Origin: a virus
Length of the DNA: 32,617 nt
Virus record (IMG/VR): IMGVR_UViG_3300043409_000859
Location: 1 to 32,617 of that record
Direction: 5' to 3' (one strand)
This document shows positions 3,145 to 26,729 of this stretch, piece after piece. The position numbers were made by a program, and so were the translations under genes. Each line of letters begins with the position of its first letter. Within the stretch, counting starts at the first letter, position 1. Below the pieces are notes generated by a model. That model worked only from the letters and a program-made list of their open reading frames with translations, was not told the DNA's origin and ran no database searches.

Positions 3145-4188
3145 ATGAGCAACACAAACATTGCCACTACTCAAACCCGAGTTCCGCAAACCTTGCGGCA
3201 ACAACTATCCGGGGATTACTTCAAGCAACAGGTAGCACTTGCGCTGCCTAAGCACATGACGGCGGATCGCTTTGTCCGCGTCGGACTGACTGCCATACTT
3301 AAAACGCCAAAACTGGCAGACTGCACCCCTGAATCTGTCATTCAGTGCATGTTAAACTGTTCCGCGCTCGGACTTGAGCCGGATGGTCGCCGCGCGCATC
3401 TGATTCCGTACGGCAACGTCTGCACCCTGATTGTGGACTATAAGGGTATTGTGGAGCTTGCCAAACGGTCTGGCGATGTTGCCAACGTGTTCGCCCAGGT
3501 TGTTTGTGAAAACGACTCATTTCAGTGGGAGAATGGCGAAGTCAAACACCAGATTGATTTCAAGCGTGAGCGTGGCGCAATGTATGCCGCGTATGCTACG
3601 ATCACATTCAAAGACTCCACCAAACAAACCGACGTAATGACAAAGGCCGAGGTTGACGCCATTCGCCGCCGCAGCAAAGCAAGCGGTTCAGGCCCGTGGG
3701 TAACGGATTACAACGAGATGGCCAAGAAAACGGTGTTTCGCCGTGCCTCCAAGTGGATCACACTTTCGCCCGAAGTAGCAGAAGCCTTGGAAAAGGAGGA
3801 TGCCCCGTTCTCGTCTGCTGCCCTTGTGACTGACTTGCAGCCTGCGCCCGTTCACATTGAAATGCTGCCACCGCCAGTAATTGAGCAAGACGACGTGCCG
3901 ATGGGTGAACCAACATCGCAACCAGAACCCGCAAAGCCAACACCATCACCGGCACAGAAGCCAAAGCAGGAAGGTGAATCGTTGCAGGATCAGCTTGCTA
4001 AGGTGTGCAAGGATGGCGGGTTCGACTATGATGACTTTGGAAAATGGGCAATCGAATCCGGCAACGTGCCTGACGCCGACAGCCGCGACGGGTTTGGTGA
4101 AGTCCATGAGGCTATCTGCAAGCGTTTGCTGCGCTCGCAAGTCGGTATGCTCAAAGGTATCGCCACCGTGAAAGGAATGACTGTATGA
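3145..4188 (+). CDS. recT: RecT-family single-strand annealing protein
   Basis: A 347-residue protein with the RecT core. The N-terminal part has LPKHMTADRFVRVGLTAI, then SVIQCMLNCSALGLEPDG, then HLIPYGN and LIVDYKGIVELAKRSG, and the block RRRSKASGSGPW followed by DYNEMAKKTVFRRASKW. This order is characteristic of RecT/lambda Bet-type recombinases, which anneal complementary single strands during phage recombination. The core spans about residues 15-215; a Pro/Glu-rich linker (about 230-280) leads to a small C-terminal domain. The stop overlaps the next gene's ATG. A partner exonuclease was not seen nearby; it may lie outside the window. Confidence 0.92.
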   Translation: MSNTNIATTQTRVPQTLRQQLSGDYFKQQVALALPKHMTADRFVRVGLTAILKTPKLADCTPESVIQCMLNCSALGLEPDGRRAHLIPYGNVCTLIVDYKGIVELAKRSGDVANVFAQVVCENDSFQWENGEVKHQIDFKRERGAMYAAYATITFKDSTKQTDVMTKAEVDAIRRRSKASGSGPWVTDYNEMAKKTVFRRASKWITLSPEVAEALEKEDAPFSSAALVTDLQPAPVHIEMLPPPVIEQDDVPMGEPTSQPEPAKPTPSPAQKPKQEGESLQDQLAKVCKDGGFDYDDFGKWAIESGNVPDADSRDGFGEVHEAICKRLLRSQVGMLKGIATVKGMTV

Positions 4189-5020: not shown

Positions 5021-5221
5021 ATGACGTTAGGAGATTACCTGTCAGCATGGCTATTTGTTGGCGTGTTAATCATTTCCGTGCTGGCGATTCGGCTGACCAT
5101 CCTCGTAAATCCACCGGGATTGCCGCCGCCTTCTCCATTGATCGCAGTTTTGGCTCAGGAACACCCAGCATTTGCAAATCTTTCAACGCCTGCTTGTAGA
5201 GTGCTTTCAAGTCCTCCTTAG
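5021..5221 (+). CDS. Possible small membrane protein overlapping the 3' end of the giant gene (doubtful)
   Basis: A 66-codon plus-strand frame starts with MTLGDYLSAW and has a hydrophobic helix at about residues 8-31, then a Pro-rich tail. Its last 150 bases lie antisense to the giant gene's 3' end. The membrane helix is encoded mainly outside that overlap, which is the reason to keep it. No ribosome-binding site is seen, and it sits beyond the terminator. It may be chance. Confidence 0.2.
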   Translation: MTLGDYLSAWLFVGVLIISVLAIRLTILVNPPGLPPPSPLIAVLAQEHPAFANLSTPACRVLSSPP

Positions 5222-8200
5222 TTTCCTTCTCGTAAGCCGACGCCTCAACGCCCTTGACGACACTCTTGCGCTCGTTCTGATTCTGGTAGGTCGTGGCGTT
5301 ATTGAACCGAGCCGCCAACCCGCGAAGGACGTAAGGGGCTGCTTTCTCCACATCTACCGTGCGTTGCCGTAATCCTGCCAGTTTTGCGCCTATTTCGCTA
5401 AAGCTGTATTCCCGCCCAAAGTCGCCCGATTGTCCAGTTGCCGCGCGGTAAGCCTCCTGCCCCATGCGGAAAGCGCGAGGTGTGAAGTTCTCAGCCACAT
5501 AGCCAAGCCTGTCAGCTACGCCCCTTGATCCTTCTGCCATTGTAAGCGGTCGGCGTTGCCCGATGCGGATGTTAAACGCACCTTCCGCCAACGGCCCAAT
5601 GACTGCACCCGGACCAACGTAATCCGCCGCCCAACCGGAAGCCGCATTGATAATAGCCTCGTCAGGGTTTGGATCATTTACCGCGTTCCAGATGGAATAA
5701 CCTGGGCGACTTAGTTCGAACGTCGGGAATATGTAGCCCATTGGCACATATCCGTATTTTGTGCCGTCAACTGAGACGTAAGCAAGGTCATCGCTACGAT
5801 CCCACGGAGCAACAATCCAGCGTTTTAACGCCTTGTCCTCCTCATCGTCCACGTCTTTTAGTCCACGCATCAAAGCCGCCAGTGCGAACGGCGCGAGCGT
5901 CATTGTGGTTAAAGCCGCAGCTTTGCGGTATCCGTCTGCTTTTAGTTCTGCGTTGGTGCTACCCATTCCATCTTTGGCATACTTGCCGATCCACCACGCA
6001 TTGCGGAACACTTCCGCCTTGAACGAAACGAAGGTATTCAACGCGCCAACCCTGCTGGCATCTCGGATAATCTTGGGAAGCCGGTCGTAATTCTGGTAGA
6101 TGTTGCTCGCCCTATCCGCTGCCCATTCAACTTGCTCATTAAACGACATTTCGGGGTGCGCTTTCTTTGCAAGGTGCAACTCATCGAAGAACGCCGACAC
6201 TCGGAATACGTCGTCATAGAAGCGAATACCAATTTCGCCCGGTGTGCGCCAGAAATCGGAGATTGCCTGACGCAAGCGAACGTACGCCCCGCCCGCTTTC
6301 GGATCGCTCAATATGTCTTTAATTGCCTTGATTGCGCGGCGAGTCACTTGTTTGCCCACTTCCTGCCGGGTATTGGCCTGCACATCGCCCAGCATAATAC
6401 CCTTGCCAACCAATCCTGTGCGAGTAGCCAACAGGTAATCCGCTCGCGCAACCAAGTTGCGATGCGTGGCGTTCACATCAATCAATCCACCGAGAGAAGC
6501 AAATCGTTCCGGGATTGTCTTAAACCCTTCCGCCTTGTTGCCGCGGCGTACCGCGCTATATGCCCGTGCTAGATTTTGAGTGAACACGATTGGCGAATAC
6601 ATGCTTGCCGCCATGCGGTTGACCAATCCGCCCAAGGTGTTGACGCCCCATGACGCGGGATTCCACGCCACTAACGCGCCCTTTTGGTAGTTCGTGATAC
6701 CCATGAACGTGCGCCCGACCACGCTTTGAAAGTCCAGAACACCGAGGATGTTGTTCATCTTGGCGTCAAACTCATCCAGCGCCGCCTTGAACTCCGGCGT
6801 AGTGTAATAGCCGGACAAGGGTTCGTGCTGCCGATCCACCCGCGTCCGATAGCTGCCAATCTGTTCGCCTTCCTCAGTGGTTCGCGCTTCGCCTTCTTCG
6901 TCGCGTTCGGGAGTAAATACCCGTTCCGACTCGTAAAGCTGTTCGGTAAATACGCCCGTCTTTGTCTCGCTCAAGACTCCCATTTCCAAACCGATGCGGG
7001 CAAACCTTCGTTGCGTGAGGTTGCGCGTGATGAATTGAGCCAGCCATTTACCAGACTGCAACACCTTGGCGTAAGGGTCTTTGATTTCACCCATCCATTC
7101 CCGCACTTCTGGCGAGAGATTCTTACGCCTGAGCAACGATGTTGTGTCCACGGCAATGCGTTTGCCAGTGCCGCCCATTTGACGCGGCGACATTCCAAGA
7201 GCGTCCTCAACCTCCTGACGATTGATAAGCGAACGCATCTCCGCTTCAATCTGGCCGTCGTCCATGTTCGGATTCTGACGCTGCAAATAATTCTCGATGT
7301 TGTCCCAAATGCGAGAAACCTCTACGTCACCCTTATCTTTGCGCCGTTTCAGTGTGTCGTAATTCCAATCAGACGTAGAATCGAACGCGAGATAGGTGCG
7401 CTTGAGCCATTCACCACTATTGTTAAGCCACGTCTCCGCCATCTGCCCGCTGACAAGTCCTTCGCTTACGGCCATTGCGCTCAAGTCGTCTATCGCTTTT
7501 CGAATTTCGGTAGCTCGCAACTGAATGATAGGCCCGCCAATGGTGGACGCGTCAGCCTCGCCATTGAGAAACGAGAGCAATCGCTCATTAGCTTGATCCT
7601 GCTCGGCCTTGGTCTTGAACTCTGCATTGATCGCGCTTCGCAAGTCGTCCAACGCCAGCCGGATATTTTCCTCGATGTATTTCTGGTCTGACAAACCGCG
7701 CTCGCGCGCCTCGACAAACGCCTTTGGCGCAGATGCACCGCGCACGACTTGAGACAAGGCGCGCTGAATAAGATTCTTTTGAAACGGCTTTGTCTTTTCG
7801 GGTTGTGTCTGGTCGTTCTTTGGGAGCTTTGACGGCTTTGACAGTTTTCTTGTTTCAGATTCTAAAAAGCTAATTGTTTCCGCTTCGTTAAAACCTTTTA
7901 GGTTTTTGGCTTTGAGAGCCGCCACGCCCGCGCGAATAGCTTCCGCCAGTGATTTACCCGCCTTGATCGCCAATCGCACTGCGCGCAAAGCCACGTTCAA
8001 CCCGCCCTTCGTCATCCAGACAGGTGCGCTTAATACACCTTCAAGTGTCTTGGTCTGGTCGAAGTCCGTCCGGGCTATCATCTGATCCAGCCAGTCCATA
8101 AACGACGATTCGCGCGGCATCTCGCCGCCTTCGTAATCCATTGCAGATTCACTTGGTTCTGCTGCCGTTACTGCTGCTACCGGTTCGCTTTGCTTTTTGT

Positions 8201-11200
8201 GTGGACGCAACTTAGAGGTTGCAACCTCAATGGCTCTGCCTGCCCAATCGACGAACACCATAGACTGGTCGTGATGCGTGCTTTGAACCTTTCCGATAAA
8301 AACAGTTCCACGATCATCAGTCCATTCAACCATGCGCCCGACGCCAATCGCTGCCGCAGGCCCGGCATCTGGTGGAGCGACAAATTTGACAGGCTCAAAG
8401 ATTGGCCTTCCCGCCTCGTCTAACACCTTGGAATAATCAACAGGGCGCATCTCCTGCTTTGCGTCCATGTAAAGTATCCACCAGCCATTTTCATCCCACC
8501 TGTGCGCGGCTACGTCGTGAGATACAAGCTTGCCGTCTGTTCCCTTGAGATAAAACAATGAGCCTTGCGGTGCTGTGGTTCGTATCCATGACGGCACTGG
8601 AAACGGTGAGGCTTGAATCTCGGTTTCGATCTGGTCTAGGGCACGCTTGAGAGAGTCTAATTTTTCTGCGCCAGAAAACGGGGTGTCAGCCATCGTTTGC
8701 AAGCCGCTGATTGACTCGCGTGATCTGTTTATTTCGGCAATCTTGTTTTCCAGCTTGGTGACAATGCTCCGCAACGTGGCTTCCGCGCTCGCAATGGATC
8801 GCGTTCCCATGTCGTATCTAACCCCGCTCGGCCCTTCCATGTAATGAGAGTAGTCTTTGTAGAGATACAACTTAAACGGGCCAAGCGCGCCCATTTGCGT
8901 GATCGCGTTTTGCAGTGGCGTGGCTTTCAATGCCGCGTCCGCTAAATCCCGATCCGTGTAAGTCGTTCCCTCAATCTCAAACTCAAACGGCTTTCCGGCT
9001 ACTTGTGCCCGATACGCCTCCAAATCCTTCGTCAGTTTTGCAACCAATTTGCCGCCAGATTCATTGTCTGACTGTATCTGCTTCACCTTATTGCCCGCCT
9101 GCCACGTCGCGGAAAAGTGATTGCTCCGCTTGATTTCGAGATTCTTAACCTTCTTCTCAAGAGCAACCCGCAACATCTGCCGGGGATCGCCTGCCGCCGC
9201 GCTGAACGTGGCTTCAAAGCTTGCCACTGAATCAGTTTCATCGGATGCGTCTGCGCCGTCACCTTCCAATGTCCGCTCTCCCTTGCCTTCGCCGTTCAAT
9301 AGTTCAATAAATCGGGTGATGAATCGCACCTTGTTAAGCAACACCTGCCACCGTTTTCCGTCGCCGCTTCCTTCAACGGTATAGCGATGCTCTATAACAG
9401 TATTCCACTTGTTGCCTTGACGCCAACCGCGCCCGTTGCGTTGTTCATGTGAACCAGGCATCCAAGGCGCGTCAACGTGGTGCATCGCCCTAAGATAGTC
9501 CTGAGCATTGACGCCTGTTCCCATCGTTTCAGTCTGCCCAAAAGCAACGCGCACGCTCTTGTCCCGCATCATTTGGGATATGTCCTCCTTCGACACCGCG
9601 CCTGTCACGCGTACCACGCGTCGGAGAATGTCATTTGGCCGCATTGCAATCGGATCAAGCGACATATTTGCAAACACGGCAACTTGCTCAGGTGGTATCC
9701 CTTTGGCTTGAAGCTTTTCAACCATGTCCCGCAGCACGTTAAACTTAATGACGCGCTCTTTGTCTTTTATTACGTTGCCGTCTGCGTCGGTAATCGGTTT
9801 TCCATTTTCATCTTTTCGAGTTTTTAACCTATCCGTGAAATCATTAAACCCTTGCTCCATGAACACCATTTGCGTTGTGTCTGGTGATTCGTGGTAAATC
9901 GTGGAGATGTTGCCGACAACAGCGTTGGCTTTGCTGCCTTCCCAATCTGTCGCAAAACGGTCAATCAGCCGATAATCCAACGCGGACAAGCTGGCTTCCG
10001 TGCTGAGTTGCAACGGGCCATCCTTGCCCTCAAGCATGATCTCTCGCCGGGCTTTCCCGTCCGCGTTCATCCATGCCCGGTATCTTGTGCGGATGTTCTC
10101 CAAGTGTTCCAACTGCATCTTGGACATTTCGAGAATTACAGGCTTGATCTGCTTGCGTGGTCGCCCTTCTGGATTCTCCGTCATCCCCTCGTCACTCGCA
10201 CGTGGTTTGAACTCCGGCATGTCTTTGCCTAGAACAATGTCAAAATACCGGCCAGCCATCCGCGCCAATTCAGGCACATTGATGAACGCGCGCAACCGCT
10301 CGACCGCTTCATAGATGCCCGCGTCGTTCATCTCTACCTCTGTCGCTGCATCCGCAAAGAGGTTAAACCAATCATCAAACCGCTCGATACCAGCGTCAGC
10401 CATGTCCGACGACATGACATATTTCATCATGTTGTAAGCCTCGTTGAGCGTGTTGGTGATCGGCGTTCCCGTAAATAGGAAAGTGCCTTTGCCTGCGTTC
10501 CGCGATTTAACGTAGTCGGTCAATAACGACAAAGAGAACCCAATGCCGGATTCTGCCTTGTTCAACCCTTTAATTTCTTTGCGGGTCGCCAGTGCTATCT
10601 TTTTGAAGATATGCGCCTCGTCCACAAATATGGCATCAACGCCCAAATCCTCAAAGAATACTGCTCCTTCTTTGGAAGCCTCTTGCGCTTTCTTTCTAAT
10701 GCGCTCCTTGATTCGCGCCCTTGCTTTTACAAGTTGCTTTGCCGTCGTCATCCCCTCTTTGCGTCCTGCCCATCTTGCGAACTCTTTCGGATCATCTAAA
10801 ATATCACGCGATGGCGGCGACTGTCCTGCGTCTGCCAATTCCGCCAAGACTTCATCTTCTAACGCCTGAATCTCCTTTGCCGCCAGTTCGTTTAGAGTTT
10901 CCTCGCGCAATGTAAAACGATCAATTAACGAGTGAGGAACAACGATAGCGTCCCAATCGTCCAAGACGATCTGCCGCAGCTTTGCGGATCGCTCTTGTGG
11001 GGAAAGGCTGTCTAAGTGAAGAAACTTTCCAGCGGGATACGCTTTGCGGAAGTCTGCGACAACAGACGAATGGTTAGCATTGTGAGCGAAAATAAGCGGC
11101 TTGCGGAATACACCCAATCGCCTGCCTTCCATTGCAAGCCCGGCCATTGTGAAGGTCTTTCCTGTGCCTACCTCATGCCCAAACATTCCTTTGCCGTCTT

Positions 11201-14200
11201 GCACTCCGCGCCACACTGCGTCTTTTTGGTGCTTTCTGAAATCAAACTCTCCACGCCCCAGCGTCAACGCCAACCCTTCAAGCATTAGGTGCGAGCCGTC
11301 CCGGTCTGGTGCAACCATTGAGTTTGCAGCCTCGTTGTATTCGTTTGATAACCGCGCGATTCGCTCCGAATCCTGCCAAATCCACTTCTGAAACTCCTCA
11401 CGTATTGCGTCAATTTTACCATTTGCTTCCTCGGTAAATGCCTGGCTTGGCACTAAGTTGCCATCGCTATCTTTTACTTTGACGACAACAGAAGTTCCAT
11501 TCATTGCAGCATTCAGCAAACGCTTAAATGATGTTTGTGGGATGCCCCATAAAGTCGTCGCTTCTGGACTTTGTGTTGCTACATCGTCATTGACTTTGAC
11601 ACGCCATCCGGTTGATTGGCGTTCAATGGTAATGTACTTGGTTTGAGTCTTAATCAGATGGACAACGAAGTCTTTGTAGTCGTCGTGCGATACCCAATTT
11701 GCGCCCATTCGAACATCAATTTCGAAGTAAGGCGTGTCCTTGGGTTGAACCGCCTGCAATGCCTCGATGTTCCGCGCCATGTCCAAACCCTGCTCCTGCG
11801 CTGCCTGTGCCTCGCGCAACTTGCGCCGCACGTTGTCAGACAAGTATTCGTCTCGCGCCTGCCACGTTCCATCTGGTGCTTTGTAAATCTGATTTAACTC
11901 AGTCAATTTGCTGATAACGTCTGCCTCTGATCGTTTTGCAATCTCTGACACGTCCTGCACGGAGAAGTGAACCGATCGGTTCCGTTGAATCGCGTAGGCG
12001 TCCTCGATGCTGGATGCTGCACCCGGCACTTTCTTTCTGAGAATGTTTTGTTCTAGGATTGCGCGAGGCTTGCCGCTTTCATCTTCAAGATTGAGAACGC
12101 TCGTCATACCAGAGTCGCCCGCGCGCTCCATGACCTCAATCATTTTTGAGCCGCGCACCAACCCGTGTTTCTTCTTGAATCCAGCATACGCCGCCGCCAT
12201 TTGCTTGCGCGCCGCGTCAACGTCGCCACCCTTGCGATAGGTGTCCATCATTGCGTCGTAACTGTCGCGAATGGCGATTGCGCCAACTGCTTCGGACATA
12301 CGGTTCTTGGTCGCTGCTGCCCCGGAAACCTTCCACTTCTTCAAATCGTGCAACAATGCCAGTTGTTCACCCTGCACTTGGTAAAGGTCGCCGTCCTTCT
12401 GGATGATAGCGAATTGCCGTGAGCTGGCAGGCACGCCCTGAATCATTGTTACTTTCCCCTCTGGCCGCATCCACGGCTTGAACACGTCCGCAGGCACGCG
12501 CGTAGCGATGGCTTCCATCGCCTCTTGATGGTTCGGGGGAGCAATCACCATCATGCCCGCGCGACCCTTGGTTGATCCGCTGCCAAAGCCAAGCGTTCCG
12601 ATGATCTGCGCGGGGTTTGTCTGGTAATACTTGTTCAGCCTGATCTTGCCGCCCTTCAACTCAAGTTCAACTGTATCAATCCAATCGTCGGTGGAGTTTT
12701 CAAGCTTGGTTTCTCGCTTACGAAGAATAACCAAGTCCGTGACAACGGCTGTTCCTGCATAGTCGCCAAACGTCCCGGCTGGCAATCGGAATGAGGCAAT
12801 CAGTTCTCCGCGCGCCGCGAGGTATCGCCGCACGGTCGGGTTGGCTTTGTCCATCGTTCCCGTGCTGGTGATGCCGACGACCAACCCGCCCGGCCTGACC
12901 TGATCCAATGCCTTCAAGAAAAAGTAGTCGTGAAGAACTGGCGAGAAATGGTTATACCGGCGGTCGGCTGGCTTAACATCCGCAAACGGCCAATTGCCTA
13001 GAACAAGGTCGTAGAAGTTATCTGCCGTCAGACTGTCTTGATACCCCTTGATTGAAATGCTTGCCTTGGGATGCAGCATTTTTGCAATGCGCCCCGTCAG
13101 TTGCTCTAGCTCGATGCCGGTCAATACGCTGTTCCGCATGACTTCGCGCGGCATGAGTGAAAAGAAGTTACCGATGCCGACGGACGGCTCAAGCACTCGC
13201 CCTCCCTTGAATCCCATCCGTTCAATGGCCCGCCAGATTGTTGAAACCGTGATCGGGTCGGTGTAATGCGCGTTGATGATGGACGTTTGCGCCGACTTCC
13301 AATCCGCTTCCCCCAGGTGTTCGCGCAACCAAGCATCTTCTTTTTCCCATGAAGGTTTCGGGGCTGGATCATTCCAAGCTCCGTTAAATAACTCCTGACC
13401 GAACGCGCCCCAGCCGGTGTAAGCCGCTAACACATCCAAGTCTTGCGGGTTGGGTTCTTTGTTTTCAGCAATCAGCCGTTGAACAGTTTCAATGGCCTGC
13501 TGATTCTTTTTGAAGCGTGCCTTGGGGCCACCGCCGACGATGGATGCCGGGTCTTTTAGCCAGTAGTTCTCTCGCCCGACTGAGTTATCTGGCTGAGAAA
13601 TTGAGCTTCCGTCTCCGGGTTGTGTGGGATTAGTTCCCGCTCCGCCTGCTGCCGGGCTTCCGAGTATTCCCCCGGCATCTTTCGCGCCGCCTGCAACGAT
13701 TGATGATCCAGAACGCTTGCCGCCAGTTCCAGTGCGTTTGCCGCGCTTAGAACCTGCGTCAGCTTGGGGCAGGCTTCCCGCCACATCCGCACTATCGCTT
13801 GCGGTCGGTGGTCCCGCAGGCTCATTCCGTCCTGATTCATCAGGGTTTGTTCCGCCCTCAGATGTTTCAGATATGTCGGGTTTAGTGTCATCGCTGGCCT
13901 CTGGTTTAATTTCCGCCTCTGTGCTTGGTTTGTCAATATCCGAGATGATGCTCTTGGCCTCGTCCCGGCTTACGTCCTCAAGATTGTCGCTGATGTCGGT
14001 CGCCGTCGCCCACGCGCCGCGCAGGTATTGCTTCAATGAATCCCAAATTTCAGGCAAGTCCGCTTTGACGCGCCGCGCAAAGTCTCCAAACTTAACAACA
14101 CCCTCTTGCGCGTAGTTCACCGCTAACTCTGCTGCAATCGTCGCTACTTCTGGATCAACGCCAAGGTTGGTCTGCTGCCCCAGCTTCTTGCGTAGGCGCG

Positions 14201-16838
14201 CTTTCAATTCCTCGCGCTTGGCAAGGATCGCCGCCATCTTCGCATCGGTTGCGGTAGGTGCGGTGGGTGTTTGGGTTGGTGTTTCATTGCCGCGCTTTGC
14301 ATTGCGTTTTTTCCACGCCGCATCAAACGCCCTCTTTGCTTCAAATATCGCCTCGGCCTCTGTCTGCCCCTTGCCGTCAATAGCAAGAAAGCCGCCTTGA
14401 TTGCTGGTTGCTACCGCTTTGAACTTATAGCCCGCCTTAGCATCAAAGCCAGTTGCCTTGCTGACTGCCATCTCTGGCGGTTGATAGTCTGTTGCCTGCT
14501 CTACAACTACTTTGGGCTTTCTTGCATCTTCAATACGCGGCGCATCTTGGGCAACAATCGGCTCTCCCTCTCCACGCTCAATCGCGCCGGTAACTTGGTT
14601 TTGTAATTCCTTGAGAGGGGCTGATCTTGTGTCCGGCTTGGCAATCTTCTTTGGTGATGTTCCTTGCGCCGGTGCAGTCATCGGCTTCCCGCTGGCATCT
14701 ACTACGTAATACTCCGTCCGCTTCCCTCTGACTTGAACTCCTGCGCGAGACGGCACGATTGCTGCCGTGTTGTAAATGGCGTCAACCTTGCCTTGCTGCG
14801 TCTTTCCGTAGCTGTCCACATATTCAATCCAGTCGCCCGCGGTTATCTGTTCAGGTGTGACCGGCGACGGCAGGGTGGTTTGTTCCACCTGCCCCGGCGT
14901 CGTACCCGTTCCTTGGACTGTGGAAGATTGCTTCTTGTTGACTAAATCAAAGTTTGGCCCTTTACGGTTTGCTCCCTCAATCGCACCATTCAACCAGACA
15001 ACGCGCCCCTGATTGGCAAACGATGCTGTGTCATCTCCGCGCATGATGGCATTTAACGCAGCCTTTTGCGCTGCATCTCGCATCTGTTCAAGTCCGGGAA
15101 CGGCGGATGTGTCCAGCTTCATTCCAGCTAGAACAGCATCGTATTGCGTGGCGTTACCGCGTTTCTGGTTTGATTCAAAGAACTTTCTGGCGTCAGCGTC
15201 AGACAATGCAATCAACTCTTGCGCGGTTACATCACCTGGATTGCGTTCTGTTAGTTGCTGAGATGGCGTCGTGACCGTTCCTTGTGGGGGAGAAGATTCT
15301 AGCTTTGCGGCTGCTGGCGTGGCGTCAATGGAGTCATCTCCAAACACCGACCGTTGCCACTTTTCAAACGCTGCAAGTTCCTCTGGTGAATAGCTTGATG
15401 TGTCAAACGCCTCTTGTTTGAGTGTTTTTTCTGGCGGCAAAACCTCTATCTCGGCTGGTTTTGCCGGTGTCACACTGGCAACCACTGCCGGTGTGGATGC
15501 CTTCGGCGCAAGCTGATTGCCTTTCAATGCCGCCTGCAACTCCGTCACCATGTTCGCCAAATCACCCTTGGTTGCCGGTGCTGCGGCCTGCTCTGGCGTC
15601 AGCTTCGGCTCAGTCGCTTTAAGCATCCCTTCAAGCTGACTGGCTACCTCTGTTTTGGTAGAAGCACCCGGCGCGGGAGAAGTCGCTTGCACCGCGCCGG
15701 ATGTTTGTTGTTCAGTCGAATCAGCAGTAATCAGAACGTCAGAGGATGATGGAGCTTGCGACTGTGAGATTGGTTCGTCCGCCATGTAGGGGTTTGATTT
15801 GCTCGCGTTAAACGTGCGCGCAATTCCCCGCATTGTGTCCGCATTACCGTCTGATTCAGGAGTTACAACCGCTGCCCCGCTTGGAATGGTTGCCTCTAAA
15901 GCTTGTCTGTTTGCGATGCTCTCAGATTGTCGCGCAAAATTACGTTCCGCCGCGCGCTCGCTCAAAGCTTGCTCTCCTACACCGACCACACTTGCGCCAC
16001 CACCAGCCGCGCCACCGAGCAACGCGCCCGCTGCCATAGCTGTAGGAACGCCAACCCATATACCACGCTCAGGATCGTAGGTCATTCCTGCCGCTGCGTT
16101 CTGTCCGACCTGCTCAAATCCCTCTTGCAACGCCTCGCGACTTGAACCTTTAGCGATTGCTTTGCCGATGATCTTCTTGGCGGTTTCCGCTCCGACTCTT
16201 GCCGTGCGCGCTGCCCTGACAAGCCGGAAGATGTTTGCGCCAACACCAAGCAACGCCTCGCTCGTCGCGCCGATGCCTAAGTTAATCAGGAAAGCTTTGT
16301 CGGCCTGATCCTCGCGCCCGGCATCAATCGCCGATTGCGCTTCGGATTGTCCGGCAGATAATCCGTACTGCAATCCGCCAGCTACCACGCCACCTGCACC
16401 AGCCGCCGCAATCGTGGGCACCATTGCCCCGGCACTGGAAGGGATTGTGTCAGCCCAGAACTCACCTTTGAATTTCGGGTTGGTTGGGTAAGCCTCTTTC
16501 GCGCCTTCGGCCAATGCTTCGCCCGCTCGGTAAAGTCGGCTTGCTTGGATTTCCGCTTGATTCTGTTCCGGTGTTAAGCTTCGGCGTCTGGCGACTTCCG
16601 ACCGGATTCGGTCATCTACCCCGCCAACGACTTCAAACCCTTCCGGCATACCCAGCAAGGAAGATGGTCGCAGCAAACGCTCTGCGCCTTGAATAGTTTG
16701 GCCCGTAGCAACGCCACCGCCTTGCATGAACGCATTGGCAGCAGAAGCAAGCCTGCTTTGCCCGCTATCTGGCGCGTCTTCCAGATAGGGATTTGACTCT
16801 GCAACTGTTGGTGCATCTTCCAGATATGGATTGCTCAT
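5070..16838 (-). CDS. Giant polyvalent ejection-type protein: N6A methyltransferase, SF2 helicase, large C-terminal domain
   Basis: This uninterrupted 3922-residue frame is the last late gene. Residues 3-10 and 16-23 repeat NPYLEDAP, with a variant at 349-356. Gly/Ala-rich, membrane-like segments lie near 130-165 and 255-290; low-complexity linkers fill 300-880. A helical domain (about 895-945) precedes an N6-adenine methyltransferase: motif I RVLEPSVGIGNFF at 1214 and motif IV Asn-Trp-Pro-Phe at 1282. The SF2/SNF2 helicase has Walker A GHEVGTGKT (1887-1895), DEAH (2073-2076), FTGTPITNT (2122) and QRNGRGWRQG (2466). Then come coiled coils (2560-2760), an SH3/KOW-like patch (about 2830), and a 900-residue C-terminus including an LPD38-like block near 3500-3620. 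The layout matches phage polyvalent proteins related to P1 DarB. Ejection with the DNA, protecting or remodelling it in the new host, is inferred from position. Confidence 0.85.
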   Translation of the reverse strand: MSNPYLEDAPTVAESNPYLEDAPDSGQSRLASAANAFMQGGGVATGQTIQGAERLLRPSSLLGMPEGFEVVGGVDDRIRSEVARRRSLTPEQNQAEIQASRLYRAGEALAEGAKEAYPTNPKFKGEFWADTIPSSAGAMVPTIAAAGAGGVVAGGLQYGLSAGQSEAQSAIDAGREDQADKAFLINLGIGATSEALLGVGANIFRLVRAARTARVGAETAKKIIGKAIAKGSSREALQEGFEQVGQNAAAGMTYDPERGIWVGVPTAMAAGALLGGAAGGGASVVGVGEQALSERAAERNFARQSESIANRQALEATIPSGAAVVTPESDGNADTMRGIARTFNASKSNPYMADEPISQSQAPSSSDVLITADSTEQQTSGAVQATSPAPGASTKTEVASQLEGMLKATEPKLTPEQAAAPATKGDLANMVTELQAALKGNQLAPKASTPAVVASVTPAKPAEIEVLPPEKTLKQEAFDTSSYSPEELAAFEKWQRSVFGDDSIDATPAAAKLESSPPQGTVTTPSQQLTERNPGDVTAQELIALSDADARKFFESNQKRGNATQYDAVLAGMKLDTSAVPGLEQMRDAAQKAALNAIMRGDDTASFANQGRVVWLNGAIEGANRKGPNFDLVNKKQSSTVQGTGTTPGQVEQTTLPSPVTPEQITAGDWIEYVDSYGKTQQGKVDAIYNTAAIVPSRAGVQVRGKRTEYYVVDASGKPMTAPAQGTSPKKIAKPDTRSAPLKELQNQVTGAIERGEGEPIVAQDAPRIEDARKPKVVVEQATDYQPPEMAVSKATGFDAKAGYKFKAVATSNQGGFLAIDGKGQTEAEAIFEAKRAFDAAWKKRNAKRGNETPTQTPTAPTATDAKMAAILAKREELKARLRKKLGQQTNLGVDPEVATIAAELAVNYAQEGVVKFGDFARRVKADLPEIWDSLKQYLRGAWATATDISDNLEDVSRDEAKSIISDIDKPSTEAEIKPEASDDTKPDISETSEGGTNPDESGRNEPAGPPTASDSADVAGSLPQADAGSKRGKRTGTGGKRSGSSIVAGGAKDAGGILGSPAAGGAGTNPTQPGDGSSISQPDNSVGRENYWLKDPASIVGGGPKARFKKNQQAIETVQRLIAENKEPNPQDLDVLAAYTGWGAFGQELFNGAWNDPAPKPSWEKEDAWLREHLGEADWKSAQTSIINAHYTDPITVSTIWRAIERMGFKGGRVLEPSVGIGNFFSLMPREVMRNSVLTGIELEQLTGRIAKMLHPKASISIKGYQDSLTADNFYDLVLGNWPFADVKPADRRYNHFSPVLHDYFFLKALDQVRPGGLVVGITSTGTMDKANPTVRRYLAARGELIASFRLPAGTFGDYAGTAVVTDLVILRKRETKLENSTDDWIDTVELELKGGKIRLNKYYQTNPAQIIGTLGFGSGSTKGRAGMMVIAPPNHQEAMEAIATRVPADVFKPWMRPEGKVTMIQGVPASSRQFAIIQKDGDLYQVQGEQLALLHDLKKWKVSGAAATKNRMSEAVGAIAIRDSYDAMMDTYRKGGDVDAARKQMAAAYAGFKKKHGLVRGSKMIEVMERAGDSGMTSVLNLEDESGKPRAILEQNILRKKVPGAASSIEDAYAIQRNRSVHFSVQDVSEIAKRSEADVISKLTELNQIYKAPDGTWQARDEYLSDNVRRKLREAQAAQEQGLDMARNIEALQAVQPKDTPYFEIDVRMGANWVSHDDYKDFVVHLIKTQTKYITIERQSTGWRVKVNDDVATQSPEATTLWGIPQTSFKRLLNAAMNGTSVVVKVKDSDGNLVPSQAFTEEANGKIDAIREEFQKWIWQDSERIARLSNEYNEAANSMVAPDRDGSHLMLEGLALTLGRGEFDFRKHQKDAVWRGVQDGKGMFGHEVGTGKTFTMAGLAMEGRRLGVFRKPLIFAHNANHSSVVADFRKAYPAGKFLHLDSLSPQERSAKLRQIVLDDWDAIVVPHSLIDRFTLREETLNELAAKEIQALEDEVLAELADAGQSPPSRDILDDPKEFARWAGRKEGMTTAKQLVKARARIKERIRKKAQEASKEGAVFFEDLGVDAIFVDEAHIFKKIALATRKEIKGLNKAESGIGFSLSLLTDYVKSRNAGKGTFLFTGTPITNTLNEAYNMMKYVMSSDMADAGIERFDDWFNLFADAATEVEMNDAGIYEAVERLRAFINVPELARMAGRYFDIVLGKDMPEFKPRASDEGMTENPEGRPRKQIKPVILEMSKMQLEHLENIRTRYRAWMNADGKARREIMLEGKDGPLQLSTEASLSALDYRLIDRFATDWEGSKANAVVGNISTIYHESPDTTQMVFMEQGFNDFTDRLKTRKDENGKPITDADGNVIKDKERVIKFNVLRDMVEKLQAKGIPPEQVAVFANMSLDPIAMRPNDILRRVVRVTGAVSKEDISQMMRDKSVRVAFGQTETMGTGVNAQDYLRAMHHVDAPWMPGSHEQRNGRGWRQGNKWNTVIEHRYTVEGSGDGKRWQVLLNKVRFITRFIELLNGEGKGERTLEGDGADASDETDSVASFEATFSAAAGDPRQMLRVALEKKVKNLEIKRSNHFSATWQAGNKVKQIQSDNESGGKLVAKLTKDLEAYRAQVAGKPFEFEIEGTTYTDRDLADAALKATPLQNAITQMGALGPFKLYLYKDYSHYMEGPSGVRYDMGTRSIASAEATLRSIVTKLENKIAEINRSRESISGLQTMADTPFSGAEKLDSLKRALDQIETEIQASPFPVPSWIRTTAPQGSLFYLKGTDGKLVSHDVAAHRWDENGWWILYMDAKQEMRPVDYSKVLDEAGRPIFEPVKFVAPPDAGPAAAIGVGRMVEWTDDRGTVFIGKVQSTHHDQSMVFVDWAGRAIEVATSKLRPHKKQSEPVAAVTAAEPSESAMDYEGGEMPRESSFMDWLDQMIARTDFDQTKTLEGVLSAPVWMTKGGLNVALRAVRLAIKAGKSLAEAIRAGVAALKAKNLKGFNEAETISFLESETRKLSKPSKLPKNDQTQPEKTKPFQKNLIQRALSQVVRGASAPKAFVEARERGLSDQKYIEENIRLALDDLRSAINAEFKTKAEQDQANERLLSFLNGEADASTIGGPIIQLRATEIRKAIDDLSAMAVSEGLVSGQMAETWLNNSGEWLKRTYLAFDSTSDWNYDTLKRRKDKGDVEVSRIWDNIENYLQRQNPNMDDGQIEAEMRSLINRQEVEDALGMSPRQMGGTGKRIAVDTTSLLRRKNLSPEVREWMGEIKDPYAKVLQSGKWLAQFITRNLTQRRFARIGLEMGVLSETKTGVFTEQLYESERVFTPERDEEGEARTTEEGEQIGSYRTRVDRQHEPLSGYYTTPEFKAALDEFDAKMNNILGVLDFQSVVGRTFMGITNYQKGALVAWNPASWGVNTLGGLVNRMAASMYSPIVFTQNLARAYSAVRRGNKAEGFKTIPERFASLGGLIDVNATHRNLVARADYLLATRTGLVGKGIMLGDVQANTRQEVGKQVTRRAIKAIKDILSDPKAGGAYVRLRQAISDFWRTPGEIGIRFYDDVFRVSAFFDELHLAKKAHPEMSFNEQVEWAADRASNIYQNYDRLPKIIRDASRVGALNTFVSFKAEVFRNAWWIGKYAKDGMGSTNAELKADGYRKAAALTTMTLAPFALAALMRGLKDVDDEEDKALKRWIVAPWDRSDDLAYVSVDGTKYGYVPMGYIFPTFELSRPGYSIWNAVNDPNPDEAIINAASGWAADYVGPGAVIGPLAEGAFNIRIGQRRPLTMAEGSRGVADRLGYVAENFTPRAFRMGQEAYRAATGQSGDFGREYSFSEIGAKLAGLRQRTVDVEKAAPYVLRGLAARFNNATTYQNQNERKSVVKGVEASAYEKETKEDLKALYKQALKDLQMLGVPEPKLRSMEKAAAIPVDLRGWSAESPARK

Positions 16839-16844
16839 GTGAAA

Positions 16845-17660
16845 TCACGGTTTCGGAAAGTCTTTGCCTGTCCGCGCCTTGAATCGTGCCGCCACTTTTG
16901 CAAACGGCACTTTTGCTGTAATCGCTTCATTTGCGAGCTTTAACTCTGTGTTGTAATCAGCGACTTTTTCCGGCGTGGCAACGGTCATATCTCCACCCAT
17001 CAATTCCTCGTCCCGCTTCCGCACGTCGCCCATGACTGGCACTGTTTCCTTTGGCGTCACTTGGTTTATGATCTTCTGCGCGCGTTCCATTGCGCCAGCA
17101 TCACCGGAAAGCTCTGCGTCAATAGCTGCTTTCTTTGCCGCGCTCAAGCGCGGGTCAATCTCTGGCTTTGCAGGTTTGCCTGTGAACGACATGAAATCGT
17201 TTAGCTGTTGCGATGCTGTCGCCTTTTCTTCTGGCGTTGTCGCTTGCGCTACTGCCTGACGAAGCTGCGTCAGAATTTCAAGATTGCGCCCCGGTGCGGT
17301 GTTGAATTGTCCCGGCTGCTTCGGTATCGGTTTGATTAACTGAATACCTGTCCCGCTCAATTTCGGATGCGTGGCAATCCATTGGTTTGCCTTCGCGCGG
17401 CCTGCATCATCTAAACTTCCTTCCGCGTTGGCTTTGATGATGGTCTGCAACTGCTGCTGATCCTCGTTCTGCGTGCGCCATTCATTGTTTGCCGTCGTCG
17501 CTTCCTTCCGCGCCGTGACGTTCTCATTGAACATCCGCTCCCGCATCGCTCTATCCTCGCCGCGCTCGGCCTGCTGCTGCTTCATCATGCGGTTTTGCAG
17601 TAAGGTGTTGCCAAGCTGGTCAGCCTGACCCAATGCCATTGCGAAGTCTTGTCTTAACAT
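16845..17660 (-). CDS. Alpha-helical putative internal virion/ejection protein
   Basis: A 271-residue, soluble, charged, Gln/Ala/Lys-rich helical protein with no membrane segment. Residues 1-80 look like a continuous helix or coiled coil; a Pro-rich region around 110-120 separates it from a second helical half. It has no catalytic motif I recognise. Six bases separate it from the giant gene and four from the gene before it. In T7-like phages a helical core protein (gp15) sits between the small and the large ejection proteins; this gene occupies that slot. The analogy is by order and composition, not sequence. Confidence 0.55.
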   Translation of the reverse strand: MLRQDFAMALGQADQLGNTLLQNRMMKQQQAERGEDRAMRERMFNENVTARKEATTANNEWRTQNEDQQQLQTIIKANAEGSLDDAGRAKANQWIATHPKLSGTGIQLIKPIPKQPGQFNTAPGRNLEILTQLRQAVAQATTPEEKATASQQLNDFMSFTGKPAKPEIDPRLSAAKKAAIDAELSGDAGAMERAQKIINQVTPKETVPVMGDVRKRDEELMGGDMTVATPEKVADYNTELKLANEAITAKVPFAKVAARFKARTGKDFPKP

Positions 17661-17664
17661 AAAT

Positions 17665-18957
17665 TCACACTGTTTTCTTGTTTGCCGCGCTTGCGTTTGC
17701 CGCGCTCAACAGTCCGCTCAACCCCATCATCCACGGACTCACTTGCTGTTGCGCCTGCTGAATGTTTGCGCCGTAGGTGTTCAATGCGCCTTGCGCGCCT
17801 ACCGCCGCTGAATTGCCCGGCATCTGTGCGCCACCCTGAACCTGCGCTTGCGGTGCTGCTCCCGGTGCGCTCAAGCTGGCAAACTGGCTTTGTGGCGTTC
17901 TGGCGTTGACCAGTGCGCTCAGGTTGCTCATGTTTTGTTGCGTGTCTCGGTACGCCGCATCTTGCGGTGTTGCCCCGCTTGTAAGCCAGCTTAAACCTTT
18001 CTGCATCGCCGCATCCTTCCGCGCCGCGCCTTGATAGCCGGTCGTTAATGGGTCGGCAAAGTTCGCGCCTGCATCTAATCCGCCTCGATCATTCCCAGCC
18101 CGTCTCACGGCATCGTCTAACATGGATTGCGTTTCCGCATCCAACCCGCTGCCTGCGTCCAACTGTCCTTGAATCTGCCTGTCTAAAGTGTTGGCAATGC
18201 TCCTGTCTGGTGTGCGATTGATCTGACCTTGAATCAACTCATCCATCTTTTGACGCGCCGCGTAGCCTTCCGGGTCGGATAGCTTCGCCTGTTCCGCTGC
18301 GGTCTTGGCGAAGTCCTCTCCGTACTTCGCGCCTAAATCCAGTTGCACCTTTGCCATCTGTTGTGCAACGGCTGCGTTTGCGTCGGCCTCGCCAAACCCG
18401 GTAAAGTCAAAAGTCTTTGGCCCTTTGGGAATGGATTCGCTGCGGGTGATGATGGAGCTATCGGATGGTTTCGGCTGGTTTGCATACTTGCCGCCTGCTT
18501 CCCAATCCTTTGGATCGTAGGGGATGTAATCGTATCTCGTCTGCTGTCCACCGCTTTTGCCGCCGAAAAGCTTACTGATTGCCTTGCTGACTGGCTCTCT
18601 TGAAATGAATCTTCCAACGTCGCCACGAATAACGCCCGCCGATGTCAAAGCCCCAAGCGGATCGCCACTGCTGCCTTGCCAAACAGATTGCGCGTAGCCG
18701 TCCTTGTCAGTGTAGCTACCATTCGCCACCTGGATGTATTGCCTGTCCTCAGTATGCGCCGGGTAGTTCTGGATGGTCGCCTTTCCGCCCTGCTTGGCTG
18801 CTGCTTCAAGCGCGCGACGGATCGGCAACAACTCCGCGTTCGTGTTGGACATCTCGCGGCTCGAAGATGCCAAGTCGGGTGCGTCCGGTTGGCCTTGTTT
18901 GGCCGCATACGATGCCCCTACGCTAATGACTGCTCCTGCTACGGCTGCCCAACTCAT
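17665..18957 (-). CDS. Putative ejection/internal virion protein, paralogue of the gene at 20266-21315
   Basis: A 430-residue protein. Residues 1-19 form a hydrophobic helix (MSWAAVAGAVISVGASYAA), as in small podovirus internal virion proteins, and a second hydrophobic segment lies near the C-terminus (WMMGLSGLLSAANASAA). Between are helical Gln/Ala/Gly-rich stretches. The central and C-terminal parts align by eye with the protein encoded at 20266-21315: shared FDFTG-GEADA, DPEGYAARQ, TPDR and Q(V)SPWMMG-type blocks. Its start overlaps the cupin stop and has a good GGAGGAC Shine-Dalgarno. A membrane-pore or ejection role is inferred. Confidence 0.55.
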   Translation of the reverse strand: MSWAAVAGAVISVGASYAAKQGQPDAPDLASSSREMSNTNAELLPIRRALEAAAKQGGKATIQNYPAHTEDRQYIQVANGSYTDKDGYAQSVWQGSSGDPLGALTSAGVIRGDVGRFISREPVSKAISKLFGGKSGGQQTRYDYIPYDPKDWEAGGKYANQPKPSDSSIITRSESIPKGPKTFDFTGFGEADANAAVAQQMAKVQLDLGAKYGEDFAKTAAEQAKLSDPEGYAARQKMDELIQGQINRTPDRSIANTLDRQIQGQLDAGSGLDAETQSMLDDAVRRAGNDRGGLDAGANFADPLTTGYQGAARKDAAMQKGLSWLTSGATPQDAAYRDTQQNMSNLSALVNARTPQSQFASLSAPGAAPQAQVQGGAQMPGNSAAVGAQGALNTYGANIQQAQQQVSPWMMGLSGLLSAANASAANKKTV

Positions 18958-19394
18958 GATTGTCCTCCGGTTAAAGCGCGCATTATGTCCTCGCTCAAGT
19001 GTCCGCCCGTGCTGACTTCGTAAGGCTCGATGATTTCCGCCTCAATATCGTCCACGTCCAGCTTGTCCGTAGGATGAAACGTCACCCACCGACAATCCTC
19101 ATGCGCGAATCCGATCCGCCTCGTGCCTGGCTTGGTGATTCCGATATGCCCCGCCGATACCTGCTGCACCCCGTTTTCTGCATCCCACACGGAAAGCTTG
19201 CCAGATAATACCACAAAGAAATGTTCCGTCTTGTGAATCTTGGAAATCGCCATTACGCCCTTAGGCAACAACATCTCCCTTGCGTAACAACCCGGCGCAA
19301 ACCGATGCGTTACCGGCACCTCGGCAGGTGGCAGCGTCGCCAGATACCGATGCACTGCATCAACGCGGCTGTTGGTTTGTGAGAGTGATGTCAT
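18954..19394 (-). CDS. Cupin-fold protein in the virion module
   Basis: Start ATG 19394 lies two bases after the previous stop; a longer upstream frame would read through that gene. The 146-residue product has YAREMLLPKGV, then a cupin core: His54, Glu57 and His58 in IHKTEHFFVVLSGKL, a turn AENGVQQVSAG, and PGTRRIGFAHED with His98. This resembles cupin-type proteins often found among phage virion genes (YAREM...HKTEH...PG-R-G pattern). Cupins are small beta-barrels, often metal-binding; the enzymatic or structural role in phages is unknown. It lies between the two paralogous ejection genes. Translation is coupled to the next gene by an ATGA overlap. Confidence 0.7.
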   Translation of the reverse strand: MTSLSQTNSRVDAVHRYLATLPPAEVPVTHRFAPGCYAREMLLPKGVMAISKIHKTEHFFVVLSGKLSVWDAENGVQQVSAGHIGITKPGTRRIGFAHEDCRWVTFHPTDKLDVDDIEAEIIEPYEVSTGGHLSEDIMRALTGGQS

Positions 19395-19396
19395 GG

Positions 19397-20269
19397 CTAA
19401 TCTAAAGTCACGCGCAAACTCGGCGCGATGGTTGCCGTGCTGAACGCTGGGATCACCAGCGATGAAATGGTCGCGTTGGCTACGTTCGTCAGAGCGTTCA
19501 CCGTGGCCTTGGTGAACACCGCACCGCCAAGCATGTCGTAGCTCAACCCCACGCACGTCGGCTGCGTCGTCAGGCTCGCGCTGCGAATACCTGCCCACAG
19601 ATGCGTGCCCTGCGCGATGCTGACCGCCATGCTTGTCACGTTGGATTTGATTCCCGTGCTGCCTGTGGAAGTCTGCACGCCAGAACCCGCAAGTCGCGTC
19701 AGGGTTTGAACAGTGGAATTGGGAGCTTGCGGCGACGAGAATAGCGCAACCTCATTCGTGGCCGCTGCGTTGCCTGCGCCTGTGACTTGGAATTGCACGC
19801 GCGCAAACGTGGTAGTTTTCTCCACCTTGCCGATGTAGCAGAAGTATCCTGTGTTTGAAACGAGCGCGATAGTGCCGCCCGCGACAAGTTGCGGCGATGG
19901 CGGGAAGATGCGTTGCAGTGGCGAGACGATGACTGTGCCGTTAGTGTGAAAATCAATGGCGTTGGAGTAGCTAATGTTGCCTGCGTTCGTCACGCCCGCG
20001 AGCGCGATGTTTGTTTGCGTTGTGTAATTCGATGGATTGCCAGAAAGATAGAACGCCGCCGCATTGGAATAGGCTGCTGTGCCTGCGTTTGTCACCCCTG
20101 CCACAGAGATATTCGTTTGCGTGCCACCGACACTGGATATTTCCAACCGTCTCCGCGCTTCGGCTGCGTTGGGTGCGCGCAACACCATCTCCATGTAATC
20201 AGTTGGATACGCTGCCACAGCTTCAAACGCCATGAACGCCGCAAATAAGATTGCGATGATTGTTTTCAC
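19397..20269 (-). CDS. Tail-fibre-like protein with N-terminal signal peptide and internal repeat
   Basis: A GTG start overlaps the preceding stop (GTGA). The 290-residue product opens with a textbook Sec signal peptide (MKTIIAILFAAFMAFEAVAA, likely cleavage after residue 20). Residues 29-45 (VLRAPNAAEARRRLEI) match a short helix common at the N-terminus of phage tail fibres. Two 24-residue repeats, residues 50-73 and 84-107, begin TQTNI and contain AGVTNAG-YSNA. The rest is beta-rich and Thr/Ser/Asn-rich. A surface fibre or adhesin-like role is likely, but the signal peptide is unusual for a virion protein assembled in the cytoplasm. Confidence 0.6.
   Translation of the reverse strand: MKTIIAILFAAFMAFEAVAAYPTDYMEMVLRAPNAAEARRRLEISSVGGTQTNISVAGVTNAGTAAYSNAAAFYLSGNPSNYTTQTNIALAGVTNAGNISYSNAIDFHTNGTVIVSPLQRIFPPSPQLVAGGTIALVSNTGYFCYIGKVEKTTTFARVQFQVTGAGNAAATNEVALFSSPQAPNSTVQTLTRLAGSGVQTSTGSTGIKSNVTSMAVSIAQGTHLWAGIRSASLTTQPTCVGLSYDMLGGAVFTKATVNALTNVANATISSLVIPAFSTATIAPSLRVTLD
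19949..20122 (-). repeat. Two tandem coding repeats in the fibre-like protein
   Basis: The coding sequence repeats about every 102 bases: residues 50-73 and 84-107 share TQTNI, AGVTNAG and YSNA at equal spacing. The conservation of polar positions suggests a repeating fibre element, as in phage fibre shafts, rather than random low complexity. Confidence 0.7.
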
Positions 20270-21315
20270 TGGTATTGACTAGCAATAGAGTCGTATTGCG
20301 CTTGTTGTCCTGGCGTTCTGTTCACCGACCACGCCCCGCTTGGACTGATAGCGTAATTCCCATAAGCGTTACTTGATGTCGCTCCGCCAGTCGCCCCACT
20401 ATTTCCCCACCCCGCTTTTTGTCCAAGGTTGTAGCCCGCAATTCCGCCGCTTATTCCCGCCATCCACGGATTAACCTGGCTGTTTGCCCAATTCTGTTGC
20501 TGGCTGTAAAGGTCGAGCGCATTGCCCATGCCCATCTGAGTCGCGTTCGGATTCAACTGCGCTTGGTTCGTCGCCCCGGTCTGAAATGGTACCGCCCCGT
20601 TGCTTGCGCTGCTCAAGCTTTGGAATTGATTTGTCGGACTCGCCCCGCTGGTGAAATTGCCCAGGTTGCTCAATGACTGTTGAATCTGGCGATACTGCAC
20701 ATCTTCCGGCAATACGCCACTGTTTAAGATGCCAATGCCTTGCTGCTGCCGCTTCGTGCGTTCGGCCTCTCCCGCGCTTACCACCGCGCCCGCTTCCTCG
20801 CTCGTGGCCGCGTTGCCCAAGAATATGCCTTGTCGTAGTTGCTTGCCCCTGACGCCTTGCTGAACCTGCTCAGTCTGCCTAGAGTCTAGCTTGCCGCCTT
20901 TCGCCAACTCCTCTTGCACCATCGCTTGCAAGCGGTTGTTCATTGGGCGATCCGGCGAGGCGTCTGCATCGGCCATGATCTGATCAAACAACTGTTGCCG
21001 CGCTGCGTAGCCGGTCGGGTCTGCCGCTTTCAACTCCGCCAGCTTTTGCTTGATGAAGTCCGGCCCGTATTGCTTCTGTAAGTCCAGAAGCGTTTGCGCC
21101 ATCTTATCGGACATTGCCGCCGTCGTGTCCGCATCACCCAACCCGGTAAAATCGTAAAGCTTCCCGTTGATCGTCGCCTTTCCGCCCATTTTGGCGAGGC
21201 TGTTGATCTGATACTCAAACGGGTAATTCTCCATGTCCGCCACCGCACCAGCAATTGCCGCCTGATTCGGGTCAGGAGGCGCGTCTTGCTTAAAAATATC
21301 GGATAGCCATGACAT
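20266..21315 (-). CDS. Putative ejection/internal virion protein, paralogue of the gene at 17665-18957
   Basis: A 349-residue, Gln/Ala/Gly-rich helical protein. Shared blocks with the 430-residue paralogue include KATI(N/Q), (Y/F)DFTG-G(D/E)AD, DPTGYAARQ, SPDR, a Q-rich helix with ILNSG...SLSNL, and an INPWMAGISGG-type hydrophobic C-terminal segment. It lacks the long hydrophobic N-terminus of its partner (MSWLSDIFKQDAPPD instead). It is the first of the ejection-type genes in transcription order, and its TGA overlaps the GTG of the fibre-like gene. Divergent duplication is inferred from the alignment by eye. Confidence 0.55.
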   Translation of the reverse strand: MSWLSDIFKQDAPPDPNQAAIAGAVADMENYPFEYQINSLAKMGGKATINGKLYDFTGLGDADTTAAMSDKMAQTLLDLQKQYGPDFIKQKLAELKAADPTGYAARQQLFDQIMADADASPDRPMNNRLQAMVQEELAKGGKLDSRQTEQVQQGVRGKQLRQGIFLGNAATSEEAGAVVSAGEAERTKRQQQGIGILNSGVLPEDVQYRQIQQSLSNLGNFTSGASPTNQFQSLSSASNGAVPFQTGATNQAQLNPNATQMGMGNALDLYSQQQNWANSQVNPWMAGISGGIAGYNLGQKAGWGNSGATGGATSSNAYGNYAISPSGAWSVNRTPGQQAQYDSIASQYQ

Positions 21316-26289: not shown

Positions 26290-26729
26290 TCCCAGCCCGT
26301 TGTGATGTTTGCCACGCCCCAGAACCTCATGGCCTCTGGTGGCGCATTGGTGAACCGCTCCAACCTGACGATGTTGTTCGTCCTGTCAGTCAGCCAAATC
26401 TCCCCGATACGATTGCTCGGCCAGAGCGAGGGCGTCGGGCTTTCCGCTCCGTTCGAAACGCTCCACACGGCATAATGCAGATTGTTTGTCAGCACGAAGC
26501 GGTTAGTTGAGATGATGAAGCTGTTCGTCCAGACGCCTCGTTGTGCGCCAACCTGAACGCGATACGCTGGTGCTACGTTGTCCCATTTCAGCGACATTAA
26601 GCGCGCTGGTGCAGGTGCGAGAGTGAACAGGCTCACGGGCTGAGTAGCCACTGGCGTCAATGTGCCACGTTGAGCTAGGCACGTTGCCGCTGTGAGCAGC
26701 ACTAGAATGATGTTCCAGTTGAGTTTCAT
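26286..26729 (-). CDS. Exported protein with FnIII-like domain
   Basis: A 147-residue protein with a clear signal peptide (MKLNWNIILVLLTAATCLA, likely cleaved after residue 19). The mature part looks like a fibronectin type III domain: MSLKWDNVAPAYRVQVGA, a Trp-Thr strand, then Asn/Thr-rich strands and LHYAVWSVSNGAESP. A final segment includes NRIGEIWLTD and a Trp/Thr end. FnIII domains in phages often act in adhesion or as virion decorations. It sits at the head of the small-gene lysis cassette. Whether it is secreted or virion-borne is unclear. Confidence 0.6.
   Translation of the reverse strand: MKLNWNIILVLLTAATCLAQRGTLTPVATQPVSLFTLAPAPARLMSLKWDNVAPAYRVQVGAQRGVWTNSFIISTNRFVLTNNLHYAVWSVSNGAESPTPSLWPSNRIGEIWLTDRTNNIVRLERFTNAPPEAMRFWGVANITTGWE

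Follow-up and report, generated by a model that had tools for sequence, protein, structure and literature searches.

A DarB-like giant polyvalent protein at the end of a phage late operon, with a tandem N-terminal motif and end modules related to those of a sister-phage giant

A single open reading frame of 3922 codons closes the late operon of a virus in the IMG/VR collection, known from metagenomic DNA, and, with a probability of about 0.8, encodes a polyvalent protein of the DarB-like kind from a short-tailed phage, which would be produced late, packaged in the head and ejected together with the DNA, and which can be read as three parts: an N-terminal delivery module, a methylase-translocase core and a helical C-terminal module. 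The window, i.e., the whole stretch of DNA analysed here, is one complete IMG/VR virus record (32,617 bases, linear), which is probably a fragment. DarB-like giants of short-tailed phages have already been published (JC1, 2022), and the protein described here is a further, differently assembled member of a class for which packaging is established. What is new in this analysis and worth pursuing is the apparent cargo swap with a sister phage and the tandem motif at the N-terminus.

The frame spans positions 5070-16838 on the minus strand, starts with ATG and is free of internal stops, in agreement with the single frame reported in the first-pass annotation. It is the final gene of a minus-strand late block that starts at the capsid gene and runs through the tail genes, which supports the late-operon position, and it lies 6 bases after the preceding gene (g16845). 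The plus-strand genes on the recT side (RecT, phrog_148) run toward it and are thus convergent. The major capsid protein is encoded at 29674-30819 (minus strand; phrog_1357, major head protein) and a candidate P22-type tail hub at 21320-22885 (minus strand). The latter matches an annotated 'phage stabilization protein' with 98% of its length covered, which supports a short-tailed particle. The genes around the giant are capsid and tail genes and not transfer genes, and the possibility raised earlier that it belongs to a conjugative element therefore found no support.

Most genes between 17665 and 24107 have counterparts with 73-92% protein identity over the aligned parts in a sister phage, L003 (IMG/VR contig 3300020045_005328), with lower values for the genes at 16845 (48%), 19397 (46% over part) and 24104 (61%). 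The first of these (16845-17660, minus strand) is the 271-aa gene directly upstream of the giant, which has no family match and whose L003 counterpart occupies the same place. Two late minus-strand genes, 17665-18957 (430 aa) and 20266-21315 (349 aa, 92% identity to L003), are paralogues, with 36-38% identity when compared through L003, and the product of the 430-aa gene is possibly an ejection protein. They flank a cupin-domain tail-fibre/adhesin-like gene (18954-19391; phrog_12032, phrog_24280). The late operon also holds a small gene (26726-27022), the C-terminal end of which resembles a Fis-type helix-turn-helix (NGNQTAAAKLLGVHRSTVRDFVRANR). The upstream genes had been described as resembling internal virion proteins, a claim that gained no independent support, the Pfam and PHROG matches of these ejection-type neighbours all being at noise level. 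Megablast against the phage collection returned no close DNA relatives of the window, and no host prophages were found with the tail gene across bacterial genomes. The capsid and tail proteins show 22-27% identity to other phages, the Bcep22-like ones absent, which together with the lack of a megablast match places the phage outside the Lessievirus/Bcep22-like group.

The centre of the giant is a DarB-type N6-adenine methylase/SWI2-SNF2 core (residues ~1100-2750). Residues 980-2745 match phrog_10089 'DarB-like antirestriction' (E=0), and Pfam by itself returned weak helicase matches only in the 3922-aa protein. The N6-adenine methyltransferase proposed by the first-pass annotation lies at residues ~1104-1414 (12597-13529, minus strand) and retains both motif I (LEPSVGIGNF) and motif IV (NWPF, residue 1282). 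Similarly, the predicted SF2/SNF2 helicase (residues ~1865-2505; 9324-11246, minus strand) is borne out by an intact Walker A (GTGKT, residue ~1893), DEAH (residue 2073), TGTPI and motif VI (EQRNGRGWRQ, residue ~2466), and the profile of the core matches structures of SWI2/SNF2 remodellers. Motif IV reads NWPF and not NPPF, and is NVPF in P1 DarB. NWPF as a sign of a dead methylase was ruled out, since it is the most frequent form in the DarB family (43 of ~80). The methylase and the SNF2 ATPase thus form a DarB-like dyad in one chain of DarB-family homology, while the combination of unrelated domains in one giant chain and a late/virion neighbourhood agrees with the description of polyvalent proteins (Iyer et al. 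2017, PMC5512222). How labour is divided between methylase and helicase is predicted, even for P1 DarB.

The core was detected by tblastn in 114 phage records, with the best match in Pseudomonas phage USP_18 (41% identity across all 1651 residues), and is present in at least 423 IMG/VR viral contigs. An exceptional size of the 3922-aa protein was ruled out by its relatives, which have a median length of 4651 aa and a maximum of 7099 aa. The longest (L088:1292-22591; IMGVR_UViG_3300046474_000370) exceeds Pavtok gp27 (5007 aa), described in 2021 as the longest phage protein known (PMC8402733), and the DarB-like protein of Agrobacterium phage Atu_ph08 has 4877 aa (PMC6630229). An HExxH peptidase motif, present in 39 of 61 complete relatives, is absent from the window giant. 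A zincin-like metallopeptidase, which would serve self-processing, is frequent and not obligatory in the polyvalent class, so its absence does not exclude membership.

The N-terminal module (residues 1-393; 15660-16838, minus strand) is common to the giant of L003, with 79% identity by BLAST and 83% by MAFFT. It holds Gly/Ala membrane-like helices and a EALQEGFEQVGQNAAAG...VGVPTAMAAGALLGG block that recurs in other giants: the 60-80 residues around it align to the N-termini of ~14 of them (hhalign probability 78-95%), compared with at most 5% for the reversed N-terminal sequence used as control. The membrane-like Gly/Ala segments noted earlier were recovered as hydrophobic peaks at residues 135-157, 260-287 and 3639-3657. 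Modelling of separate domains had been advised; the C-terminal model is described below, and the AlphaFold (AF2) model of residues 1-363 was discarded as unusable (mean pLDDT 46, pTM 0.25). A low-complexity linker rich in Pro/Ser/Thr/Gly/Ala/Gln/Glu/Lys (residues ~393-1100; 13539-15662, minus strand) leads to the core.

The first residues of the giant read MSNPYLEDAPTVAESNPYLEDAPDSG and contain NPYLEDAP twice, at residues 3-10 (16809-16832, minus strand), a candidate virion-loading tag, and at residues 16-23 (16770-16793, minus strand), with synonymous differences from the first copy in 3 of 8 codons. A diverged third copy, NPYMADEP (residues 349-356; 15771-15794, minus strand), is identical in L003. 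The tandem motif of the window giant has p=5e-5 in 20,000 shuffles. Other N-terminal duplications among 80 relatives include DQKPWESF twice in USP_18, LKPWEEY twice in L049, NPYAKY twice in L088, NPFDQFD/NPFDVFD in L025 and FKPVDYDPFA twice in L052, with more besides. The lowest possible shuffle p (0.0025) was reached by 12 of 55 non-redundant DarB giants and, among the other late ORFs, by 4 of 312 (Fisher 5e-8), in a test that was post hoc, the pattern having been noticed beforehand. The same test on the giants' own C-termini gave 0 of 50, and on other ORFs of 400-1150 aa 5 of 183, none of them near the start. In a second set, consisting of giants without DarB core that had been gathered for another purpose via the C-terminal module and of which a few N-termini had been glimpsed ahead of the test, 13 of 44 reached the lowest p; for internal stretches the figure was 4 of 230 (Fisher 1e-8). 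Some giants carry 3-5 copies of their motif (L120, L141 and L095, with LTPEEEEELA, ITFDDE and ELDIQPV). Four C-module proteins (L094, L097, L159 and L162) lack a tandem motif and begin with a small MPTYRVTDSKTG..GDSPPTEEELEEIF domain, which is perhaps an alternative leader. A motif common to several proteins of one phage was also considered and ruled out, as no further copies occur in other open frames of the same phage across 21 contigs.

P1 DarB resides in the virion head (37 peptides), and its N-terminal 30 residues suffice for capsid targeting. Together with T4-type signals these residues are among the known head-targeting signals, and the Dar proteins share no consensus (PMC9024508). Packaging of P1 DarB via its first 30 residues (PMC9024508) makes a loading tag the natural reading of the tandem motif, and by this analogy we propose that the lineage-specific tandem N-terminal motifs may be cargo-independent virion-loading tags. 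A neutral duplication in a disordered tail, without any signal, is a serious possibility although somewhat doubtful: many relatives have no tandem copy, the packaged JC1 (L005) included. In addition, short tandem duplications are frequent in disordered regions. However, the copies are old and not recent DNA duplications, because their codons differ at 68 of 151 identical degenerate residues, near the 78 expected if they were independent. Moreover, copy 1 begins at most 12 residues from the protein start in 18 of 20 cases, and the tandem pattern is not seen further inside these proteins or at their C-termini.

The C-terminal LPD38-type module (residues 3014-3879; 5202-7799, minus strand) matches two stand-alone genes, one in Pseudoalteromonas phage Y3 (1027 aa), where it adjoins the 3421-aa DdrB-like giant of that phage, and one in phage C75C1 (1343 aa). 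The Y3 homologue belongs to phrog_22602 'virion structural protein' (2.7e-80). The Y3 and C75C1 proteins, and probably LPD38-type proteins, are homologous to the window module; unlike the window giant, they are encoded by separate genes and lack a DarB core. In Y3 (L006), both the end of the giant (13010-13516, residues 3249-3417) and the next gene (13557-16640) match the same stretch of the module, a double match at the sequence level which suggests a duplicated or split C-terminal module. Exact peptides revealed no further relatives, and an alignment-based search found relatives encoded in 217 viral contigs. No DarB core was seen in the surrounding DNA fetched for the best 80 of these 217, and among the DarB giants examined the module is common by sequence to L036 only.

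The AlphaFold model of this module is mostly helical (pLDDT 69, pTM 0.66), and its predicted fold matches viral 'large polyvalent protein associated domain' proteins, two of them (E 4.9e-9 and 1.2e-8) annotated as 'Large polyvalent protein associated domain 38'. The LPD38-like block proposed by the first-pass annotation thus has a match by predicted fold, but no Pfam hit. Foldseek returned nothing from the PDB at E<=0.001. After re-alignment, the best solved structure was 8vb2_A, a PhiM1 ejectosome protein (Z 7.1, rmsd 8.5, 244 residues), which was not used as evidence because this Z lies within the chance range for unrelated helical models.

The giant of L003 (L003:10001-19081, 3026 aa) continues after the 393 matching residues into an unrelated body without the DarB core. 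This protein carries HELSHYIE, a zincin-type HExxH motif. At the DNA level, the match between the two phages ends at window position 15660, with two short islands past it. Over its final ~830 residues, the L003 giant is distantly related to the window C-terminal module (hhalign 84.5%, E 7e-6). Start and end are therefore related and the middle is different, which from the sequences of this one phage pair would represent a cargo swap between delivery modules.

A DarB-type polyvalent protein delivered with the DNA, as first suggested for this gene, is supported by homology, gene order and the proteomics of relatives. The podovirus DarB-like protein JC1 gp69 (4515 aa) gave 51 unique peptides in virions and was second-listed by score (PMC9144972), and in JC1 and USP_18 the DarB-like giant likewise terminates the morphogenesis module. 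By analogy, the particle probably contains the window giant and injects it along with the DNA. Such an injection from a podovirus-type particle had been called remarkable, a judgement overtaken by the JC1 virion proteomics of 2022 and by phage N4, which ejects a ~3,500-aa, 383-kDa RNA polymerase via a ~35 Å channel, explained by a beads-on-a-string build in which a membrane-type N-terminus and an enzyme are followed by a large C-terminal domain (PMC12633501, preprint). In the three-part reading, the duplicated NPYLEDAP tag of the delivery module would load the giant into the procapsid and the Gly/Ala amphipathic helices would aid its passage through tail and membrane. The methylase, coupled to the SWI2/SNF2 translocase, would travel in cis on the entering DNA, methylating or clearing it, and thereby protect it from (type I) restriction. 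The C-terminal module is helical, of LPD38 type and widespread among virion-type giants of phages, and would probably act in loading or in the ejection conduit. Polyvalent proteins and the methylase-helicase dyad were described by Iyer et al., who proposed translocation-coupled methylation of entering DNA, and P1 DarB is known to shield DNA in cis from EcoK-type enzymes (PMC5512222).

It is unlikely that the giant is mainly a structural protein of the ejection-conduit or tape-measure kind, in which the methylase-helicase would power DNA entry and not antirestriction. SWI2/SNF2 proteins are a dsDNA translocase family (PMC5512222), which is compatible with such a role, but P1 DarB is a known antirestriction component. 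The best solved match of the C-terminus is indeed an ejectosome protein, although a Z of this size is to be expected even between unrelated helical proteins and is not significant by the calibration of the tool, and Foldseek found no PDB match at E<=0.001. Injection of a giant of this kind from a podovirus-type particle was reportedly described by Gill et al. in 2011 for Bcep22/BcepIL02, and a role in DNA entry is said to have been suggested there. Far less probable still is a cytoplasmic late enzyme, i.e., an unpackaged orphan methylase-helicase for which the late position would reflect expression timing only: the relatives JC1 gp69 and P1 DarB are packaged, both end modules occur in giants with other cargo, and the C-terminal module is tied to the 'virion structural protein' family (phrog_22602).

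The packaged DarB-like protein favoured here differs from known members in its assembly. P1 DarB shares the methylase-translocase dyad and an NxPF motif IV; it is packaged and protects in cis against type I restriction. It differs in having ~2255 aa with the core almost at its start, and in coming from a long-tailed phage in which five Dar proteins serve as helpers. The giants of Bcep22-like podoviruses (JC1 gp69, BcepIL02, BcepMigl; Lessievirus) share the methylase and SWI2/SNF2 core (~29% identity over the core) and are also the last gene of the morphogenesis module, that of JC1 being found in the virion by mass spectrometry. The window giant differs from them in its N- and C-terminal modules and has no HExxH; the lytic transglycosylase described in the literature at the Bcep22 N-terminus was not detected in it. 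The 4947-aa giant of Pseudomonas phages vB_PaeM_USP_18/25 has the closest core of an isolated phage, its own duplicated N-terminal motif and a profile match to the N-terminal module, but a different C-terminus (hhalign 0.2%). N4 gp50, the virion RNA polymerase, has an analogous giant three-part build with a different enzyme.

More generally, and with less than even confidence in the reading as a whole, giant ejected proteins may carry a cargo-independent tag, a short, lineage-specific and often aromatic/acidic motif that is repeated 2-5 times right at the N-terminus and that, in many DarB-type giants, precedes a Gly/Ala helical block, such that any cargo in the middle would be packaged and injected. 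The window phage and L003 would then represent a natural cargo swap on such a chassis. If the tandem motif is a loading signal, it would be recognisable by eye in many phages and would predict which unknown proteins get injected, and delivery by phage particles would become directly testable.
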